This document shows, in pieces, positions 27,930 to 58,577 of a DNA stretch of 64,000 nucleotides (position 1 is the stretch's first letter; each line of letters opens with the position of its first letter). This DNA comes from Clostridiales bacterium (lineage in GTDB: Bacteria; Bacillota; Clostridia; Christensenellales; Borkfalkiaceae). The notes beneath the pieces were generated by a model. That model ran no database searches and was not told the origin of the DNA. It saw only the letters and a program-made list of their open reading frames with translations. Position numbers and translations under genes: made by a program. The stretch lies in contig SVIP01000001.1 in NCBI GenBank assembly GCA_015069425.1, forward strand, positions 310,001-374,000, given 5' to 3'.

Positions 27930-30224
27930 TTATAACTTATTTCTCTGTATCTTACCGCTAACAGTTTTAGGAAGTTCATCACGGAACACAACAATTCTTG
28001 GATACTTATAGGGCGCAGTTTTCGCCTTAACGTAAGCTTGAATTTCCTTCTTAAGCTCTTCTGTCGGCACAGTGCCTTTAACAAGTACTATACTTGCCTT
28101 TACGACTTGTCCACGCACTTCGTCTGGCTCAGCCGAAACACCACACTCTAGAACGTAAGGAAGTTCCATAATAACACTTTCGATTTCAAATGGTCCTATG
28201 CGGTAACCGCTTGATTTAATAACGTCATCTACACGGCCAACGTACCAATAGAAACCATCCTCGTCTCTCCAAGCAGTATCACCAGTGTGATAAAATCCGT
28301 CATGCCAAACTTCTTTGGTCTTTTCTTCGTCACGATAGTAACCGCAGAATAAACCACAAGGTGCACCTTCTTTAACGTTTACAACAATTTCACCAACTTC
28401 ACCATCGGGAACTGAATTGCCATTTTCGTCAATAATATCAATGTCGTAAACAGGTGCAGGTTTACCCATAGATCCAATCTTATGCGGTTTACCGACAAGA
28501 TTACCTATAAGCATTGTCGTTTCGGATTGACCAAAGCCCTCTTTAATTTGAAGTCCTGTAAGTTTTTCAAACTGACTGTACACTTCTGGGTTAAGAGCCT
28601 CACCAGCAGTAGACATATGTTTAACTGAACTAAAATCATATTGTGATATATCTTGTTTAATAAGCATTCTGAGCATTGTTGGAGGTGCACAGAAAGTGGT
28701 TATTTTATATTTAGCAAACATAGGCAAAATATCTGCGGCATCAAAGCGGTCAAAATCATAAACAAAAGTTGCCGCTTCACAAAGCCATTGCCCATAAAGT
28801 TTACCCCACATTGATTTTGCCCAACCGGTATCAGATATTGTAAAATGCAATCCATCTGGATCAACATTGTGCCAATATTTAGCCGTGTGGAAATGACCTA
28901 AAGGATACTTATGGTTGTGAAGTGCCATTTTCGGATAGCCACTTGTACCAGAAGTAAAGAACATCAACATAGGATCGTCGCCACAAGGCGTCTCGGCTGT
29001 TCTCTTAAAATGCGTAGAATAAAGAAGATATTCTTCGTCAAAGTTTCTCCAACCATCTCTAACGCCATTAACCATGATTTTATGTTTCATGTCAGGGCAT
29101 TTTTCCATCGCAATTTCTGCTTGGTGCGCAGTATCGCCATCTGCAGTACAAATAATTGCACTAGCACCAGCCGCTTTAAATCTATATTCAAAATCATGTT
29201 CTTGAAGTTGATTGGTTGCTAAAATCGCAATCGCGCCAAGTTTATTAAGCGCAATCATAGCAAACCAGAACTGATAATGACGCTTTAAGACTAAAACGAC
29301 CTTGTCCCCTTTCTTTATGCCTAAAGACTTAAAGTAGTTAGCACAACGGTTAGATTCTCTCTTTATATCCTTAAAAGTAAATCTACGCTCTGTTTTATCT
29401 CTAGAAACGTGCAACATTGCAAGTTTTTCAGGTTCTCTGTCAGCAAGTTCATCCACTAAATCAAATGCAAAATTAAACTTTTCAGTGTTTTTAAATTTGA
29501 TAGAAGTGGGCGTTCCATCCTCATCTTCAATAGTATCAATGTAATTTTTATAAATGCGTGCTTTGTCATCTTTAACAACTTTGGTTTCTTTTTTGCTAAT
29601 AAGTTTTTGAGATTCAGAAAGTTCAGGAATAGGCTCTCCCGTAGGATTTAAAACTATAGCATAAAAGACACAGTCTCTACCATTAACCGCAATCATGCCA
29701 TGCGGAGTATCACTATCATAATAAATACTGTCCCCAGGACCTAAAACTTCTTTATGTTCGCCAACTTGAACCATAAGATAGCCATCAACGACGATATCGC
29801 ATTCTTGTCCAGCGTGAGTAGTTAGTTCAATATCTTTGCCTTGTGCATCTTCACTATAGGTACTGCGCACATAAAGAGGCTCAGCAATCCTGTTTTGGAA
29901 AGCATAGGCAAGGTTATAATAAGTCATACCATGTGCCTTAGCGATTTCCTGCCCAGCGCCTAAACGTGTAACAGTATAACCTTTAAGTTTAGGGCTATAG
30001 CCCTCAATAATATCGGTAACATTTACCCCGAGAGCTAAAGCACAGCGATAAATAAAGGCAAAGTTAAGGTCTTTTTGCCCATTTTCACAAATCAAATACT
30101 CTTGCTCGGATACACCAGTTTTATTAGCCATATCGCTAACAGAAAGCCCAACGATATCACGAAGTTCTCTGATACGCCCCGCCATCTCCTTAATCTTAAA
30201 ATCAAGACCGGTTAATTTTTCCAT
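27930..30224 (-). CDS. HTH-cupin-acyl-CoA ligase (T-box controlled, predicted valine-linked)
   Basis: A 764-aa protein of three parts. Residues 15-72 are an XRE-type HTH (ELRDIVGLSVSDMANKTGVS), about 125-200 a cupin (THAGQECDIVVDGYLMVQVG, then GDSIYYDSDTPHG), and about 235-764 an AMP-forming acyl-CoA ligase with P-loop TSGTSGYPK, GFGQSET, YHTGDTAWRDEDG, the hinge block YWYVGRVDDVIKSSGYRIGP and the catalytic lysine in SGKIQR. The C-terminal block ECGVSAEPDEVRGQVVKA is typical of medium-chain (MACS/ACSM) ligases, some of which prefer branched short acids. The start at 30224 has AGGAG upstream. A T-box (30244-30508), read as valine-specific, precedes it. The close paralogue at 55971-58238 has the same layout. 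Activation of isobutyrate is the favoured, unproved, role. Confidence 0.88.
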   Translation of the reverse strand: MEKLTGLDFKIKEMAGRIRELRDIVGLSVSDMANKTGVSEQEYLICENGQKDLNFAFIYRCALALGVNVTDIIEGYSPKLKGYTVTRLGAGQEIAKAHGMTYYNLAYAFQNRIAEPLYVRSTYSEDAQGKDIELTTHAGQECDIVVDGYLMVQVGEHKEVLGPGDSIYYDSDTPHGMIAVNGRDCVFYAIVLNPTGEPIPELSESQKLISKKETKVVKDDKARIYKNYIDTIEDEDGTPTSIKFKNTEKFNFAFDLVDELADREPEKLAMLHVSRDKTERRFTFKDIKRESNRCANYFKSLGIKKGDKVVLVLKRHYQFWFAMIALNKLGAIAILATNQLQEHDFEYRFKAAGASAIICTADGDTAHQAEIAMEKCPDMKHKIMVNGVRDGWRNFDEEYLLYSTHFKRTAETPCGDDPMLMFFTSGTSGYPKMALHNHKYPLGHFHTAKYWHNVDPDGLHFTISDTGWAKSMWGKLYGQWLCEAATFVYDFDRFDAADILPMFAKYKITTFCAPPTMLRMLIKQDISQYDFSSVKHMSTAGEALNPEVYSQFEKLTGLQIKEGFGQSETTMLIGNLVGKPHKIGSMGKPAPVYDIDIIDENGNSVPDGEVGEIVVNVKEGAPCGLFCGYYRDEEKTKEVWHDGFYHTGDTAWRDEDGFYWYVGRVDDVIKSSGYRIGPFEIESVIMELPYVLECGVSAEPDEVRGQVVKASIVLVKGTVPTEELKKEIQAYVKAKTAPYKYPRIVVFRDELPKTVSGKIQRNKL

Positions 30225-30243: not shown

Positions 30244-30508
30244 AAAAAAACTCGCCCCAAAGATTTTCTTTGAGACGAGCGTTATAATCCACACCCGCGG
30301 TACCACTCAAATTGCGGAAAACCCGCCACTCTCGGAATCCATCAATTCCTATGCATTAACGCAGCAATCACGGAGAAGTTCTACTTGCACAAGCTTTCTT
30401 CTTCCCGACTCAGAAGCTACATCAACGAAAAACCACCTAGCGATTCACACCAACCACCACCTCTCTAAAAGGAAATTAATCGTGAACTCTTCTTCAACGT
30501 CTTTATTC
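30244..30508 (-). promoter_or_regulatory. T-box riboswitch, specifier read as GTA (Val)
   Basis: Minus-strand leader with the full T-box plan. AGAAG/CTTCT (around 30493-30489 and 30416-30412) forms the lower Stem I helix; the bases before it on the 3' side are GTA (30420-30418) plus a purine, placing valine in the specifier position. The AGAGAG bulge and GGTTGGTGTGAA distal loop are present. The T-box is TTTGAGTGGTACCGCGG (about 30311-30295), whose UGGU fits a tRNA with discriminator A. The terminator CTCGTCTCAAAG/CTTTGGGGCGAG (30279-30251) ends in seven T, and TTTGAG can pair with CTCAAA as antiterminator. The specifier was assigned by hand alignment with B. subtilis glyQS. Confidence 0.88.
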
Positions 30509-33507: not shown

Positions 33508-36500
33508 TTATTTTTTGATTTCGACAATGAAAGCCTTTTCTTCGTCACCGCATACAACAACCTTGATTTCGCCATTGTTGTAAACTTCAGTAAGTTCATG
33601 GTTTTCAGCATCAGCACATGCACCGTCAGCTATGTTATACTTAGCAACAAGTACGTATCTAGCATCATCGTTTGCACCGTCATTGTCCAAATCTTGACCA
33701 TTACCATTATAACACCATACAAATACGTAAACTACTTTTGCATCAAAGTCAACATAAGTTGCAAGTTTTGCAGGATTAAAATCATGATCACCAGTTATAG
33801 GCATTACAATTGAGTCAGTATGTACTTTTACATCAGCAGAATCAATAACACCATTAGCATTTACATCATGATAATATTCATAGGTATGAACACCAGCATA
33901 ACAACAAGTAGCTTCACGAGATTGAGCGTCAACTTTCTTAGCTAGTGCTACTGGCTTATAAGTACAAGGAGCATTTAATTCTGCATTACATACAGCTTTA
34001 TATACACCAGGATTTGAAACGTTATTTGCTACAGACATATTTGTAGTGAACTTCCAAGAAAGTTCGTGTCCAGTAGCTTTATCAGTAGCAGTTAGGATAT
34101 AAGTCTTACATGCAGTACAGTAAGTTTTAGTCCAACCATCTTCAGTACAAGTCTTGTGTTTTACATCAGTATTAGTTACATCATATTCATGGTGACCTTT
34201 TAAGTTAAATACAACTGTTACACCACAATCTTCACATTTGAATACAGCAAGTTTAGCTTCTGTACAGTTACCAGGTTTACCAATATTCCAAGTAATTTTA
34301 CCAGCATCAATTAAAGCTTCAATTTCAGGTGTTGACTCAGTATTAGCAGAGGTAATCGTATACTTCCAGTCACCTACTCTATGAGTACCAGTTGTATCTG
34401 AATATTCATAAGTCTTAGTAAATACTTTATCAAGAGTCCACTTAGAAGAATCATCTTCATCAAGAGCTGCTTGAACTTTATATTCATGCTTAAATTCAAA
34501 AGTATAAATCTTACCAGTTACACAACCAGTAGCGTCCGCAGTTGACTTAATCTTAGCTTCAAGGTTGATTTCCTTAGAAGTGGTTTCAGTACACTTGCAA
34601 ACAAACTTAACTATATCACCTGCGTCTGGATCAGCAATAAATGCGTTCCAAGAAGTTTCATCAGCAACAAATGTATGACCCTTTGCATCTACAGAATCGA
34701 TAACAACATCGTTTGTGCAAACAGAACATTTTTTAGTTGTAGTACCACGAACGTCGCATCCTGGAGCATTTACAGTAGGATCACCAGTAAGTTGATGTTC
34801 ACCTTTTAAGCTGATAACTATACTCTTGTTACAATCATCGCACTTGTAAACAGCATAAGCACTATGCATACAATCACCAGGATCACCGTTGTTCCAACTT
34901 AACTTATATTCGTCATTATCATCAAAGAAATCAGCTAATCTTGGATCAAAATCATAAGTTCTATTTCCGATAGCGCCTACAGTATCACTGAATGCATAGA
35001 ATTTAAATTCAGTTCCTCTTAATGAATGTTGTAATTCAGGGAAAACTTCGTGCTTATGTTCAATAACAACTTCTTTAGCAAGATCAACACCGTTTGTTAA
35101 GCCAGTAGTCTTATATGCTTCATATGCCTTAGATTGACAGTTTTCAGCTTCAACATCTTTTTCAGGAACACGAACAGCGTTTACAGTTTCTGTTCCTTTA
35201 CATACAGAACATTCAACGGTTATTGTTTGAGCACTGGCATTGAAAGACTTAAATCCCCAAACGTGACCAGTTGCTTTTTGATCATCTGCGGTATACCAAC
35301 CATTACATTCAGAACAGGTATATTTACCATCATCAGTACAAGTCTTTTTGGTTTCAACATAGTTGTGTTTGAAATTCAACTTGATAATTACAGTCTTACC
35401 ACATTCGTCATTACCACAAGTAAATACAGCAAAGTTTGCATCTTTACAGTTTGGCTCTTTATCTACGTTCCAAGCAATCGTTTCGTCAGCAAACAAAGCA
35501 TCTAATGCTTCTTGTCTTTCAACGGTATATTCTTCAGTTACAGGCGCCTTATCATCATAAGCTTTGAAACCTAAAGTATAAGTACCATTAGTAAGAACGT
35601 GTTCACCGGTAGCACCAGTTTCATTCTTCTTAATAACTGCAGATGATTCAGCGTAATTAACATCAACACCTTTCTTTAAGCCATTGTTGAAAGAATATTC
35701 ATATTCATCATAACCGCCATTTAAGCAGTCAGCCTTAACAGATTCAGCTTCACCAGCATCTTTAACGGCTTTAACAACAGTTGTTTCAGGGCAATCTTTA
35801 CACTTAAGAGTCACATTGAACTCTTTGCAACCAGCAGTTGCATAATCATCACTCGCATATTCAAAGCTATGACCTTTTGCTGGAGACGGATGAATTTCGC
35901 TAACATGTACACCACATTTTACACAAACATCAATAACTAAACTTTCTGCAGTACAAGGGTTGCTTTCAAAAACAGGAACCTCTTCCGTTTCTGCATGAGC
36001 CTTTAAATCAGCTTTACAAAGGTTACAAGTCTGTTCAGGACAAGCCTTCATTGCTATTTCTAATTCAGTTTGTGGATGATCTGTGATATCTTTGGTCTCT
36101 TCTTCAACGTAGAAACCAGCATCATTTTGTACCCATTCATACTTAACGTGATTATTAGAATTCTTTTCACCAACTACAACTTCGTAGCCATTGCACTTTG
36201 TACAGATATTCAAGAGAATTTGTTCTTGAGTACATGTTGCAGTACGTACTTCGTGCATCACGTAATCACAATCACATTCTGAATCAAAAGTGCCACCTTG
36301 GTCACCCTTGTCACCTTTAACTATACCAGCATTCTTTTCAGTTCCGTCGGTAAGTTTGATAACAAGCTCGCCATCTTCATTGATGTAAACGCTCTCAATA
36401 CTTACACCGTCTTTACCGTCTTTACCATTAGCACCATCTTTACCATCGGCGGCGCAACCGACCATACCAAATGCCAATGCGAAGGTACAGAAGACAACGG

Positions 36501-36546
36501 TAAGCAATACAAGAAGCTTCATCAAAAATGATTTTCTTTTTTGCAT
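33508..36546 (-). CDS. Large Cys-rich repeat lipoprotein with collagen-like stub and Ca-binding motifs
   Basis: A 1012-aa predicted surface lipoprotein. The start at 36546 has GGAGAAAAATAAT before it; an ATG 21 codons earlier would add a polar prefix. Residues 1-31 are a signal with lipobox MVGC (Cys31), followed by a short Gly-x-y stretch (DGKDGANGKDGKDG), common after the lipid anchor in Firmicute surface proteins. The body consists of about nine modules with paired CxxC (CTKCNGYE, CNLCKAD, CVKCGVH, CKDCPET, CSECNGWY, CDDCNKS, CEDCGVT and others), each usually preceded by a C-T or T-C turn and followed by a GH or H. Near the C-terminus DVNANGVIDSADV looks dockerin-like and DLDNDGANDD like a calcium-binding Asp-rich loop. 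It probably binds zinc and calcium; role unknown. Confidence 0.8.
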   Translation of the reverse strand: MQKRKSFLMKLLVLLTVVFCTFALAFGMVGCAADGKDGANGKDGKDGVSIESVYINEDGELVIKLTDGTEKNAGIVKGDKGDQGGTFDSECDCDYVMHEVRTATCTQEQILLNICTKCNGYEVVVGEKNSNNHVKYEWVQNDAGFYVEEETKDITDHPQTELEIAMKACPEQTCNLCKADLKAHAETEEVPVFESNPCTAESLVIDVCVKCGVHVSEIHPSPAKGHSFEYASDDYATAGCKEFNVTLKCKDCPETTVVKAVKDAGEAESVKADCLNGGYDEYEYSFNNGLKKGVDVNYAESSAVIKKNETGATGEHVLTNGTYTLGFKAYDDKAPVTEEYTVERQEALDALFADETIAWNVDKEPNCKDANFAVFTCGNDECGKTVIIKLNFKHNYVETKKTCTDDGKYTCSECNGWYTADDQKATGHVWGFKSFNASAQTITVECSVCKGTETVNAVRVPEKDVEAENCQSKAYEAYKTTGLTNGVDLAKEVVIEHKHEVFPELQHSLRGTEFKFYAFSDTVGAIGNRTYDFDPRLADFFDDNDEYKLSWNNGDPGDCMHSAYAVYKCDDCNKSIVISLKGEHQLTGDPTVNAPGCDVRGTTTKKCSVCTNDVVIDSVDAKGHTFVADETSWNAFIADPDAGDIVKFVCKCTETTSKEINLEAKIKSTADATGCVTGKIYTFEFKHEYKVQAALDEDDSSKWTLDKVFTKTYEYSDTTGTHRVGDWKYTITSANTESTPEIEALIDAGKITWNIGKPGNCTEAKLAVFKCEDCGVTVVFNLKGHHEYDVTNTDVKHKTCTEDGWTKTYCTACKTYILTATDKATGHELSWKFTTNMSVANNVSNPGVYKAVCNAELNAPCTYKPVALAKKVDAQSREATCCYAGVHTYEYYHDVNANGVIDSADVKVHTDSIVMPITGDHDFNPAKLATYVDFDAKVVYVFVWCYNGNGQDLDNDGANDDARYVLVAKYNIADGACADAENHELTEVYNNGEIKVVVCGDEEKAFIVEIKK

Positions 36547-36711
36547 ATTATTTTTCTCCTTTTTTATTTCGCAAATATTTTTTCGACAGTCTACTGTCAT
36601 CTTCGTCACACACCGCCCAATTGTTAAGCCCTAAAACCTACCAACAAACCGTATGTAGACAATATTTTTCGATAATGTTACAACCTGCTGCGCCACAAAG
36701 TCTACACCATC
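36547..36711 (-). promoter_or_regulatory. Structured 165-nt leader of the large lipoprotein gene
   Basis: From the expected start near 36711 to the ATG, the minus strand contains TGTAGAC paired with GTCTACA across about 45 bases and a second perfect hairpin GACAGT-AG-ACTGTC near the ribosome site. GC content is above the surroundings. It matches no riboswitch class I can recognise. The second hairpin could mask or present the ribosome site. Confidence 0.45.
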
Positions 36712-55970: not shown

Positions 55971-58238
55971 TTATAACTTATTTCTTTGAATTTTACCACT
56001 TATAGTTTTGGGAAGTTCATCACGGAATACTACCACTCTTGGATATTTATAAGGTGCAGTATGGTCTTTAACGTATTTTTGAATTTCTTTCTTTAATTCT
56101 TCAGTGCCTTCAGTGCCTTTTGTTAAAACAATGCTTGCTTTAACAACTTGTCCACGCACTTCGTCAGGAACAGCAGAAACACCACATTCTAAAACGTATG
56201 GAAGTTCCATTATTACACTTTCAATTTCAAATGGTCCGATACGATATCCACTTGACTTAATAACGTCGTCAACACGACCAACGTACCAAAAATATCCGTC
56301 TTCGTCACGCCAAGCAGTATCTCCCGTGTGATATAAACCGTCATGCCAAGCATCGCTAGTTTTTCCTTCGTCACAATAATATTCTCTAAATAAACCACAA
56401 GGAACTTCTTTGTCGGTATGAATAACAATTTCGCCAACTTCACCAGCAGGAACGCTGTTACCGTCAGCGTCAACAACGTCAACGTCGTATTGTGGGTTCG
56501 CCTTACCCATCGCACCGATTTTAGGCGTCGTTCCGTACAGATTTGCGATAGCAAGGGTAGTTTCCGTTTGACCGAATCCTTCCATTATTTCTAAGCCAGT
56601 CGCTTCTTTAAACTTGTTAAATACTTCTGGATTTAATGCTTCTCCAGCGGTAGTCATATGATGTATAGAAGATAAATCATACTTTGAAAGGTCGCCACGA
56701 ATTAACATTCTAAGCATGGTAGGAGGAGCACAGAAAGTTGTGATATTATATTTTGCAAACATAGGAAGCAAGTCGTTTTCATCAAACTTATCAAAGTCAT
56801 AAACGAATACTGCTCCTTCACAAAGCCATTGACCATATAATTTACCCCAAAGTGATTTACCCCAACCAGTATCAGAAATGGTTAAGTGCAATCCATCTCT
56901 TTCGCAACAATGCCAATATTTAGCCGTTACATAGTGACCTAAAGCATAAGTGTGTTTGTGCGATGCCATTTTAGGATTGCCAGTAGTTCCCGAAGTAAAG
57001 AACATAAGTGCTGCTTCATCACCACAAGAAGAATCATTAGAACGCTCGAATTTTCCTGAAAACAAGCAATATTCTTTATCAAAATCGTGCCAACCTTCTT
57101 TCGCCCCGCCAACCATAAGAAGTTTTTCAACTTGCGGACATTTTTTTGCAGCACTTTGCGCATAAGTATAAGTATCTCCATCAGCCGTGCAAACGATTGC
57201 TTTTACGCCAGCCGAATTATATCTATACTCAAAGTCGTGTTCCTTAAGTTGATTAGTTGCAGGGATTGCAACTGCACCGATTTTGTGAAGCGCAACCATA
57301 CAGAACCAGAACTGATAATGACGTTTAAGAACGAGCATGACCTTGTCGCCACGTTTAATTCCAAGAGAAGTAAAATAGTTTGCAACTTGATTTGATGCAC
57401 GCTTAATATCTTTAAACATAAATCTGCGTTCATTTTTATATTTGTCCAAATGCAACATTGCAAGTTTTTCAGGATATTTTTCAGCAATTCCGTCAACGAT
57501 ATCAAAACCAAAGTTAAAAGTTTCCGTGTTCTTAAACTTAATTGACTGTAGCCTACCGTCTGCATCTTCTTTTGTATCAACAAACTTTTCACAAACTAAT
57601 TTTTCGCTTGTTTTTGCGTTCATAACGCTCTTTCTTACAACTGTTTCTGCAGAATTATCACCAGACATAACAACTGCAACGAAAGTGCAATTTTCCCCGT
57701 CAACGGCTATCATACCATGAGGCATAGAAGAATTATAGTAAATGCTATCACCTTCTTCTAAAACCTCCACGTGGTCACCAACTTGAACTTTAAGTTTACC
57801 GCTTAAAACTAGGTCAAACTCTTGACCGCTATGTGTGGTTAAATGTATAGGTTTATTTTGCTGAGATTGAGAATACTCGTAAGTAACGTAATACGGCTCA
57901 GCAAGTTTATCTTTAAATTTTGGAGCAAGATTTGCAATATCAATGCCGTCTTCTTTTGCAGTTTCTTGACCTTGACCTTTTCTAGTCACAGTATAAGTCG
58001 AAAGACGTGCAGAACTACCCTCTAAAAGGTCGGTCATATCAACCTTAAGTGCCAAAGCGCATTTATGAATAAAAGAAAAAGGAATGTCGACCTTTCCACT
58101 TTCATAAGATAAATATTGATTTTCTTCCACATCAGTTTTTTCAGCCATTTCTTTTGTAGAAAAGCCAATAATCTCACGCAACTCCTTAATTCTTGTTGCA
58201 ATCTCCGATAACTGAGTTAAAGTGTTGTTTGTGTTCAT
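55971..58238 (-). CDS. HTH-cupin-acyl-CoA ligase (T-box controlled, predicted isoleucine-linked)
   Basis: A 755-aa paralogue of the protein at 27930-30224, similar along its whole length. Residues 13-70 are an XRE-type HTH (IREL-like core ELREIIGFSTKEMAEKTDV), about 120-195 a cupin (THSGQEFDLVLSGKLKVQVG, then GDSIYYNSSMPHG), and about 225-755 the AMP-forming ligase with TSGTTGNPK, GFGQTET, YHTGDTAWRDEDG, YWYVGRVDDVIKSSGYRIGP-type hinge (here FWYVGRVDDV) and SGKIQR with the catalytic lysine. The ribosome site is AAGGAGG. Its T-box (58271-58542) reads as isoleucine-specific. 2-Methylbutyrate is the favoured substrate by analogy with the isoleucine carbon skeleton and with branched-acid preference in some MACS enzymes; this is inference. 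Confidence 0.88.
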   Translation of the reverse strand: MNTNNTLTQLSEIATRIKELREIIGFSTKEMAEKTDVEENQYLSYESGKVDIPFSFIHKCALALKVDMTDLLEGSSARLSTYTVTRKGQGQETAKEDGIDIANLAPKFKDKLAEPYYVTYEYSQSQQNKPIHLTTHSGQEFDLVLSGKLKVQVGDHVEVLEEGDSIYYNSSMPHGMIAVDGENCTFVAVVMSGDNSAETVVRKSVMNAKTSEKLVCEKFVDTKEDADGRLQSIKFKNTETFNFGFDIVDGIAEKYPEKLAMLHLDKYKNERRFMFKDIKRASNQVANYFTSLGIKRGDKVMLVLKRHYQFWFCMVALHKIGAVAIPATNQLKEHDFEYRYNSAGVKAIVCTADGDTYTYAQSAAKKCPQVEKLLMVGGAKEGWHDFDKEYCLFSGKFERSNDSSCGDEAALMFFTSGTTGNPKMASHKHTYALGHYVTAKYWHCCERDGLHLTISDTGWGKSLWGKLYGQWLCEGAVFVYDFDKFDENDLLPMFAKYNITTFCAPPTMLRMLIRGDLSKYDLSSIHHMTTAGEALNPEVFNKFKEATGLEIMEGFGQTETTLAIANLYGTTPKIGAMGKANPQYDVDVVDADGNSVPAGEVGEIVIHTDKEVPCGLFREYYCDEGKTSDAWHDGLYHTGDTAWRDEDGYFWYVGRVDDVIKSSGYRIGPFEIESVIMELPYVLECGVSAVPDEVRGQVVKASIVLTKGTEGTEELKKEIQKYVKDHTAPYKYPRVVVFRDELPKTISGKIQRNKL

Positions 58239-58270
58239 GGTTACATACCTCCTTAAAAATAATTAAAAAT

Positions 58271-58542
58271 AAAAAATTCGTCTCAAATTTCTTTGAGACG
58301 AATGTATTACACTCGCGGTACCACTCAAATTGTAGTTAAATAATACTACCACTTTAGAGTCCAACAACTCCTATGCACTGACGTAGCAAACACGGAAAAC
58401 GCCTACTCGAAATACTCTTTGGGGTTTTCAGCTCGGAAGTGATAAGATTTCCATCGGTTTTTATCGGGATTACACCGTCCCCGACTCTCTTTGAAAAACG
58501 CTTGACAGAATCCGTCTTCGTCTTAGCTTTTATATTAATAAC
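58271..58542 (-). promoter_or_regulatory. T-box riboswitch, specifier read as ATC (Ile)
   Basis: Minus-strand leader homologous in layout to the one at 30244-30508. Lower Stem I helix GAAG/CTTC, with ATC (58443-58441) plus the conserved purine A just before CTTCC on the 3' side; upper helix GATT/AATC brackets the specifier loop. The AGAGAG bulge and distal loop GGGGACGGTGTAATCCC are present. T-box TTTGAGTGGTACCGCG (about 58329-58314) has UGGU, fitting discriminator A, which excludes Ser or Asn readings. Terminator TTCGTCTCAAA/TTTGAGACGAA (58302-58277) plus six T; TTTGAG can pair with CTCAAA as antiterminator. Confidence 0.88.
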
Positions 58543-58548
58543 ATAAAA

Positions 58549-58577
58549 AGTTTAACATTATCTAAAAAGAATGTCAA
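58549..58577 (-). promoter_or_regulatory. Promoter of the second T-box/ligase unit
   Basis: Minus strand TTGACA (58577-58572), 17-base spacer, TAAACT (58554-58549); start near 58542. Confidence 0.75.

Follow-up and report, generated by a model that had tools for sequence, protein, structure and literature searches.

Isoleucine- and valine-type T-boxes precede twin HTH-cupin acyl-CoA ligases in gut Clostridia: a probable switch for the salvage of branched acids

The stretch of DNA analysed here (the window, 64,000 nucleotides of contig SVIP01000001.1, positions 310,001 to 374,000, from the Clostridiales bacterium assembly GCA_015069425.1) holds a pair of paralogous genes, both on the minus strand, each encoding an acyl-CoA ligase fused to regulator-like domains and each lying behind a T-box, an RNA switch that reads tRNA. 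Ligase B (55971..58238, an open reading frame of 755 aa) is the Ile-type member and joins an XRE helix-turn-helix (HTH), a cupin and an AMP-forming acyl-CoA ligase, which Pfam places as HTH_19 at aa 16-74, Cupin_2 at 134-189, AMP-binding at 252-621 and AMP-binding_C at 671-749. Scores of 213.6 bits for AMP-binding (cut-off 29.9) and 78 bits for AMP-binding_C (cut-off 24.5) put it in the AMP-forming acyl-CoA synthetase superfamily. All three domains that the original prediction, made from the letters of the window, had given this gene were matched. Ligase A (27930..30224, 764 aa counted from ATG), the Val-type paralogue, is 65% identical to ligase B.

The leader of ligase B runs from a promoter-like site to the ribosome-binding site (58240..58577, minus strand like all its elements). 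Within it the T-box model RF00230 matches at 58291..58533 with 90.2 bits (E 1.9e-20). The gathering threshold of 93 is missed by 2.8 bits here, while the ligase A leader exceeds it with 97.4 bits at 30268..30506 (minus strand). The T-box predicted for ligase B is thereby recovered by a covariance model, and its anatomy is that of the family: a Stem I with a specifier loop, an AGAGA/GGUG distal part, the UGGUACCGCG core and an overlapping terminator. The antiterminator core TTTGAGTGGTACCGCG lies at 58314..58329 and an intrinsic terminator of 12 pairs with a T-run at 58276..58303. Two terminator-like sites were found in this leader against 0.1 expected, and the folding energy is -16.6 kcal/mol for the 60-nt stretch with the terminator and -11.3 kcal/mol for the antiterminator piece. 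As the CGTCTCAAAG arm is common to antiterminator and terminator, the two structures would be mutually exclusive by their overlap in the sequence. The promoter claimed for the gene fared less well: a TTGACA-17-TAAACT site is present at 58577-58549, at the start of the leader, but two promoter-like sites against 1.7 expected in shuffles are at chance level and make weak evidence.

The core TTTGAGTGGTACCGCG, which had been described as common to both leaders, stands in each of them and nowhere else in the window; in the rest of the genome it is also found in the leaders of a third ligase (C) and of an ACT-MBL gene, both described below. These four leaders are 0.56-0.70 identical to one another and 0.42-0.54 identical to the other six T-boxes of the genome, which fits common descent of the four. 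What distinguishes the ligase leaders from the known T-box is the gene that they would govern, an acyl-CoA ligase acting on a carboxylic acid; a 2008 survey of T-boxes (PMC2494555) does not use the term "acyl-CoA" in its main text.

The specifier of the ligase B leader is AUC (Ile) at 58441..58443, followed by A58440, and that of the ligase A leader is GUA (Val) at 30420-30418, followed by G (both on the minus strand). Both readings depend on the register of the specifier loop, for which 83 stem I sequences of relatives were aligned. RNAalifold gave 14 pairs, 12 of them with pair-keeping changes on both sides, and the helix adjoining the specifier (columns 19-22/106-109) pairs in 82-83 of the 83 sequences, with two-sided changes at all four pairs. 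This conserved and covarying helix fixes the register as triplet, one base, helix. In this register the two specifiers remain different after structural alignment, AUC standing against GUA, so the predicted duplicates with different tRNA inputs are indeed present.

The covariance model R1, built from the same alignment and run over three sets of sources (60, 59 and 80), gave 94 + 79 + 39 = 212 stem I matches, in all of which a triplet could be read in the loop closed by the conserved helix. The loci are not a random sample, coming from the best 80 of 551 relatives and, for further loci, from the best 30 each in two sets. Ahead of a ligase gene lie 197 of the matches, corresponding to 194 distinct proteins, whose specifiers are Ile in 127 cases, Val in 67 and another amino acid in none. 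The 108 type-B genes and the 4 type-C genes all have AUC, the 65 type-A genes have GUA (55), GUC (9) or GUG (1), and the remaining 17 have AUC (12), GUA (2) or TCC (3). In these last three rows (L164, L166 and L173) AUC lies one base over, before a 5-bp helix, and they were relabelled Ile; a CTG specifier given to L089 by a first heuristic was likewise a slip and was rejected. The tabulation, which covers the host genome and its relatives, bears out the expected correlation of specifier and ligase clade across genomes and shows that the pair with Ile and Val inputs is real and widespread in gut Clostridia. Both genes also occur in L091 (Erysipelotrichaceae bacterium NK3D112), whose record carries no MAG label. 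The description of the specifier as ATC followed by a conserved A is true of the ligase B leader in its letters, but not of the family in its conservation, as the next base is A in 65, C in 52, G in 6 and T in 1 of the Ile leaders (plus the three slipped rows) and G in 54, A in 11 and C in 2 of the Val leaders. A related stem I was also seen at L118:1277-1388 (minus strand), between a type-B gene and same-strand P-loop/vor-like genes, with a GAA or CUG specifier; CUG is possible and would need a longer helix.

The best solved relative of the ligases by sequence is 3etc (732 bits with a profile of A, B and C, 630 with B and 618 with A), which we take to be the Macs enzyme of Methanosarcina acetivorans. 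Homology over the whole length of the ligase part is accompanied by the pocket tryptophan of this enzyme, as Trp464 of ligase B aligns with Trp259 of 3etc, using a numbering offset of 23 inferred from Gly459-Tyr460-Lys461; the match covers no HTH-cupin part. The M. acetivorans enzyme is reported to prefer 2-methylbutyrate and to depend critically on Trp259 for substrate binding (PMC10455477). Four residues before this Trp lies position 460 of ligase B (codon 56859..56861, minus strand), the ligase-domain column that best separates the Ile type (Gly) from the Val type (Ala; Ala469 in ligase A). 3etc has Gly here and so agrees with type B at this position as well as at the pocket Trp, whereas type A has Ala in place of Gly. 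Among 180 full-length proteins (125 Ile, 55 Val), Gly occurs in 122 of the 125 Ile types and Ala in all 55 Val types; with all genes that cover the site, the counts are 124/127 and 56/56, and the residue differs in each of the 39 Ile/Val pairs that share a locus. This comparison of acyl pockets, proposed with the original prediction, thus found a pocket segment that diverges with the specifier, and the extra methyl group of Ala in the Val type would fit a smaller acid. In the HTH-cupin part there are four columns (96, 99, 116 and 187) that tell the two types apart even more cleanly than column 460.

The agreement with the specifier varies along the protein. In trees of single segments, two Ile/Val changes are needed for each of 1-120, 120-228 and 421-520, four for 521-620, 13 for 229-320, 12 for 321-420 and 20 for 621-753, with 7 each for the longer segments 229-560 and 560-753; shuffled labels on the ligase-domain tree need 42-51. 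Because a poor tree could also give such a pattern, nucleotides were compared in the 39 same-locus pairs. In segment 641-753, the identity between the A and B genes within a genome is 0.84 as against 0.745 for B genes of different genomes, a difference that may partly reflect shared base composition, and the nearest gene is the own partner for 46 of 78 genes. The own partner is nearest for 18 of the 78 in 476-560, 11 in 229-320, 5 in 561-640 and 4 in 321-420, but for 0/78 in both HTH-cupin segments, which shows that the HTH-cupin part is clearly spared by gene conversion. For the pocket the same is suggested by the segment tree and residue 460. Along the protein, then, it is the HTH-cupin part and the pocket that go with the specifier, while gene conversion blurs the other parts, most of all the C-terminus.

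The full-protein tree without the pocket columns has two specifier changes, and 54 of its 55 Val genes form one clade with a support of 99. A separate second switch to Val is represented by L186 (G243:C46:53100-55352), which combines GUA and Ala460 with mostly Ile-like HTH-cupin residues. This gene otherwise groups with the Ile type and has a VorB gene 1.4 kb away. The ligase-domain tree has a weak backbone and no clean A/B clades, with a minimum of 6 changes, or 11 without the pocket columns. A failure of the specifier rule, as this tree would suggest, was rejected on the segment trees, the nearest-partner test, the full-protein Val clade and L186.

The HTH-cupin part resembles XRE-HTH/cupin regulators in having an HTH followed by a cupin barrel, and three residues of the cupin (His136, Glu140 and His174) do not vary among 60 sequences. 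The first Foldseek match of its predicted model is 1y9q (E 6e-15), with a TM-score of 0.37 over both domains, the relative placement of which differs or is uncertain, and a sequence search of the PDB with this part gave no match at E 0.001. Unlike these regulators it is fused to a ligase, whereas in L204, L207 and L219 it is a separate gene just ahead. The HTH-cupin part may take part in acid-specific control. Tentatively, this can be extended to a double-sensing enzyme in which the T-box would read the missing amino acid while the HTH-cupin would sense the corresponding branched acid, or the product made from it, and gate either the ligase or its own gene. The twins would be kept alike by gene conversion in much of their catalytic chassis, and three islands (specifier, HTH-cupin and acyl pocket) would be held apart, so that RNA input, sensor and active site would evolve as one specificity unit.

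At E 0.001, ten T-boxes were matched in the window genome (1.57 Mb, 94.7% complete), one of them ahead of a third HTH-cupin ligase, ligase C (C18:4152-6452). A third copy had been predicted, with a Leu T-box; the copy exists, but its specifier is AUC (Ile). No Leu copy of the HTH-cupin ligase family was found by a protein search of the genome, which gave A, B, C and one distant ligase with 29% identity. This distant ligase, on contig C17, belongs to a leuA operon preceded by two T-boxes, one for Leu (CUC) and another whose AUC was read by hand only and is not among the R1 matches. The extension of the rule to Leu holds only as far as the T-box is concerned, since the operon carries a different, TIM-barrel ligase. 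A simple reason may be that MbcS, a related ligase of Staphylococcus aureus, takes two alpha-methyl acids and is reported hardly to take isovalerate (PMC10026030). The C17 operon encodes a LeuA-like protein (226 bits, cut-off 532), a branched-chain aminotransferase (BCAT; 475, cut-off 307) and VorB (551, cut-off 399), as well as the ligase itself, which joins a TIM barrel to AMP-binding, a P-loop protein and two more subunits like those of VOR, the 2-oxoacid:ferredoxin oxidoreductase. The tandem T-boxes ahead of the LeuA-like/ligase/BCAT/VOR operon (L016:4286-4818) are Leu (CUC) and then probably Ile (AUC), possibly a two-amino-acid gate. In relatives, Leu triplets occur in a stem I upstream of the type-B gene, on the opposite strand, with CUC in L098, L099 and L103 and CUG in L102. 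The genes that follow this stem I resemble, by eye, the same LeuA-like and TIM-barrel proteins in L098 and L102.

Behind ligase C lies a MaoC-like hydratase (L015:6491-6919, plus strand), so the acid that this ligase activates may be a different one, branched or unsaturated. The ACT-MBL gene (L015:14094-15533, minus strand), with Pfam matches to ACT, an ACT like that of the acetohydroxyacid synthase small subunit and Lactamase_B, has its T-box at L015:15745-15850 (minus strand) with AUC followed by A. Its leader is the one in the genome most like that of ligase B (0.70), and the protein may sense or handle Ile. In the window itself, two genes upstream of ligase A, an open reading frame of 1033 aa (33508-36609, minus strand) gives from its letters the impression of a lipoprotein-like start and repeated Cys-containing stretches.

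As to the metabolic setting of the ligases and the classical synthesis of branched-chain amino acids, ketol-acid reductoisomerase (KARI) and dihydroxy-acid dehydratase (DHAD) were not found in the window genome at its 94.7% completeness, each family having been found in 14 of 14 control genomes, and the genome has VOR and an aminotransferase, its own VOR and BCAT lying behind the Leu and the probable Ile T-box. Within the order, KARI occurs in 127/396 genomes, but in 0/54 of those whose match to the HTH-cupin ligase exceeds 1000 bits as against 127/342 of the others (Fisher, 2e-10). The 54 genomes, which include the window genome and were judged by KARI and VorB, have 12 family codes, 9 of which also comprise KARI-bearing genomes. 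VorB is common in the order (202/396 over the cut-off) and nearly universal in the ligase genomes, with 51/54 compared with 151/342 of the others (Fisher, 2e-13). It lies within 5 kb of the ligase in at least 24 of these 51 genomes, with 8 family codes and two ligases scored per genome.

Taken at a probability of about 0.75, these ligases belong to a salvage route that responds to starvation for Val or Ile: the matching ligase is induced and activates isobutyrate or 2-methylbutyrate, which reductive carboxylation and transamination then turn into the amino acid. The two enzymes would provide the activation step of a salvage that replaces the classical synthesis. Uncharged tRNA-Ile or tRNA-Val would cause antitermination at the matching T-box, and the ligase would be made; type B (AUC, Gly460) would convert 2-methylbutyrate and type A (GUA, Ala) isobutyrate to the CoA ester. 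VOR would then carboxylate the CoA esters to 2-oxo acids, from which the branched-chain aminotransferase would make Ile and Val. This model starts from the observed T-box anatomy and specifiers, the correlation of specifier and pocket, the absence of KARI and the presence and linkage of VOR, and from these we infer the response to tRNA, the substrates of the ligases and the direction of VOR. Rumen bacteria have been known since the 1960s to build amino acids from branched volatile acids, and a route from acid to CoA ester, 2-oxo acid and amino acid was proposed (Allison 1962, cited in PMC7356843). The proposed steps are the same; the difference is that the activation is now linked, as a proposal, to particular ligase genes and to an RNA switch that reads tRNA.

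Several points weigh against the salvage model. Separate substrates would not be forced by the family, as a single MbcS handles both acids in S. aureus. Two of the three HTH-cupin copies of the window genome share the Ile specifier, which leaves the role of one Ile ligase unexplained, and Ala460 occurs despite an Ile specifier in three genes (L045, L237 and L238). A type-A gene that lacks its own T-box follows a type-B gene within 150 bp at 12 distinct loci (15 rows), 9 of which have an AUC T-box ahead of the B-A pair; a strict matching of one T-box per ligase is thus relaxed. In the pocket stretch 421-475 the own partner is nearest for 4/78 genes, no better than in 321-420 (4) or 561-640 (5). 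The tree-corrected residue test has 2 independent pairs on the full tree, where the specifier changes only twice, and 5 on the ligase-only tree (p 0.0625), too few for significance. The 1000-bit cut was set after the list had been seen, and 7 of the 20 genomes at 900-1000 bits have KARI. Moreover, the genomes counted for KARI and VorB are related to one another, and the Fisher tests ignore this kinship.

The same evidence must be set against other explanations. The best NCBIfam match of the two ligases is MbcS (NF047394; 441.7 and 433.4 bits, below the equivalog cut-off of 850), the S. aureus enzyme reported to activate both 2-methylbutyrate and isobutyrate and to serve fatty-acid synthesis (PMC10026030, in the main text of which "T-box" does not occur). 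The ligases could accordingly supply primers for branched-chain fatty acids, with the T-boxes reporting the supply of Ile and Val, otherwise the source of these primers. This is unlikely in view of the absence of KARI from all 54 genomes, the proximity of VorB and the BCAT/VOR operon behind branched-chain T-boxes, points which nevertheless leave room for such a second use. Alternatively, the Ile-type ligase could activate propionate, which is abundant in the gut, for carboxylation to 2-oxobutyrate and entry into the ordinary Ile pathway. That route needs both KARI and DHAD. The M. acetivorans enzyme is indeed reported to form propionyl-adenylate (PMC10455477). The failure to find KARI and DHAD in the window genome (94.7% complete) and KARI in any of the 54 genomes nonetheless makes the propionate route very improbable, and finding Gly with Ile and Ala with Val would be the opposite of what a C3 as against a C4 acid leads one to expect.

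A different objection is that specifier and ligase agree simply by inheritance of one old duplication without functional coupling. The Val-type genes do offer few independent replicates, with 54 of 55 in a single clade. Gene conversion, however, overwrites other parts, mostly 641-753, and spares the HTH-cupin, while the pocket tree still follows the specifier; in L186, furthermore, both specifier and residue changed in an independent switch to Val. Mere inheritance is therefore rather improbable, and activation of branched acids for Ile and Val synthesis is preferred.

Reductive carboxylation of branched acids (PMC7356843), T-boxes and the Macs and MbcS enzymes were already known. The combination of T-box and ligase, the matched specificities and the HTH-cupin fusion are apparently new, as far as the listed titles and abstract openings of an open library go. 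There, no T-box joined to a branched-acid ligase was found, in agreement with the original prediction, which knew of no description of the pair; Vitreschak 2008 and the Shah 2009 structure paper could still mention it. Branched volatile acids are reported to be fed to livestock as isoacids. If the salvage model is true, it names the ligase genes and the RNA switch for the activation step, and T-box specifier and residue 460 would together become a genome-readable marker of acid-to-amino-acid use in gut bacteria. The ligases and their T-boxes would also offer naturally occurring pairs of RNA sensor and enzyme, through which switches of specificity can be followed. In some gut bacteria without the usual route to Val and Ile, twin enzymes apparently activate branched waste acids for the synthesis of these amino acids, each under an RNA sensor for shortage of the matching one.

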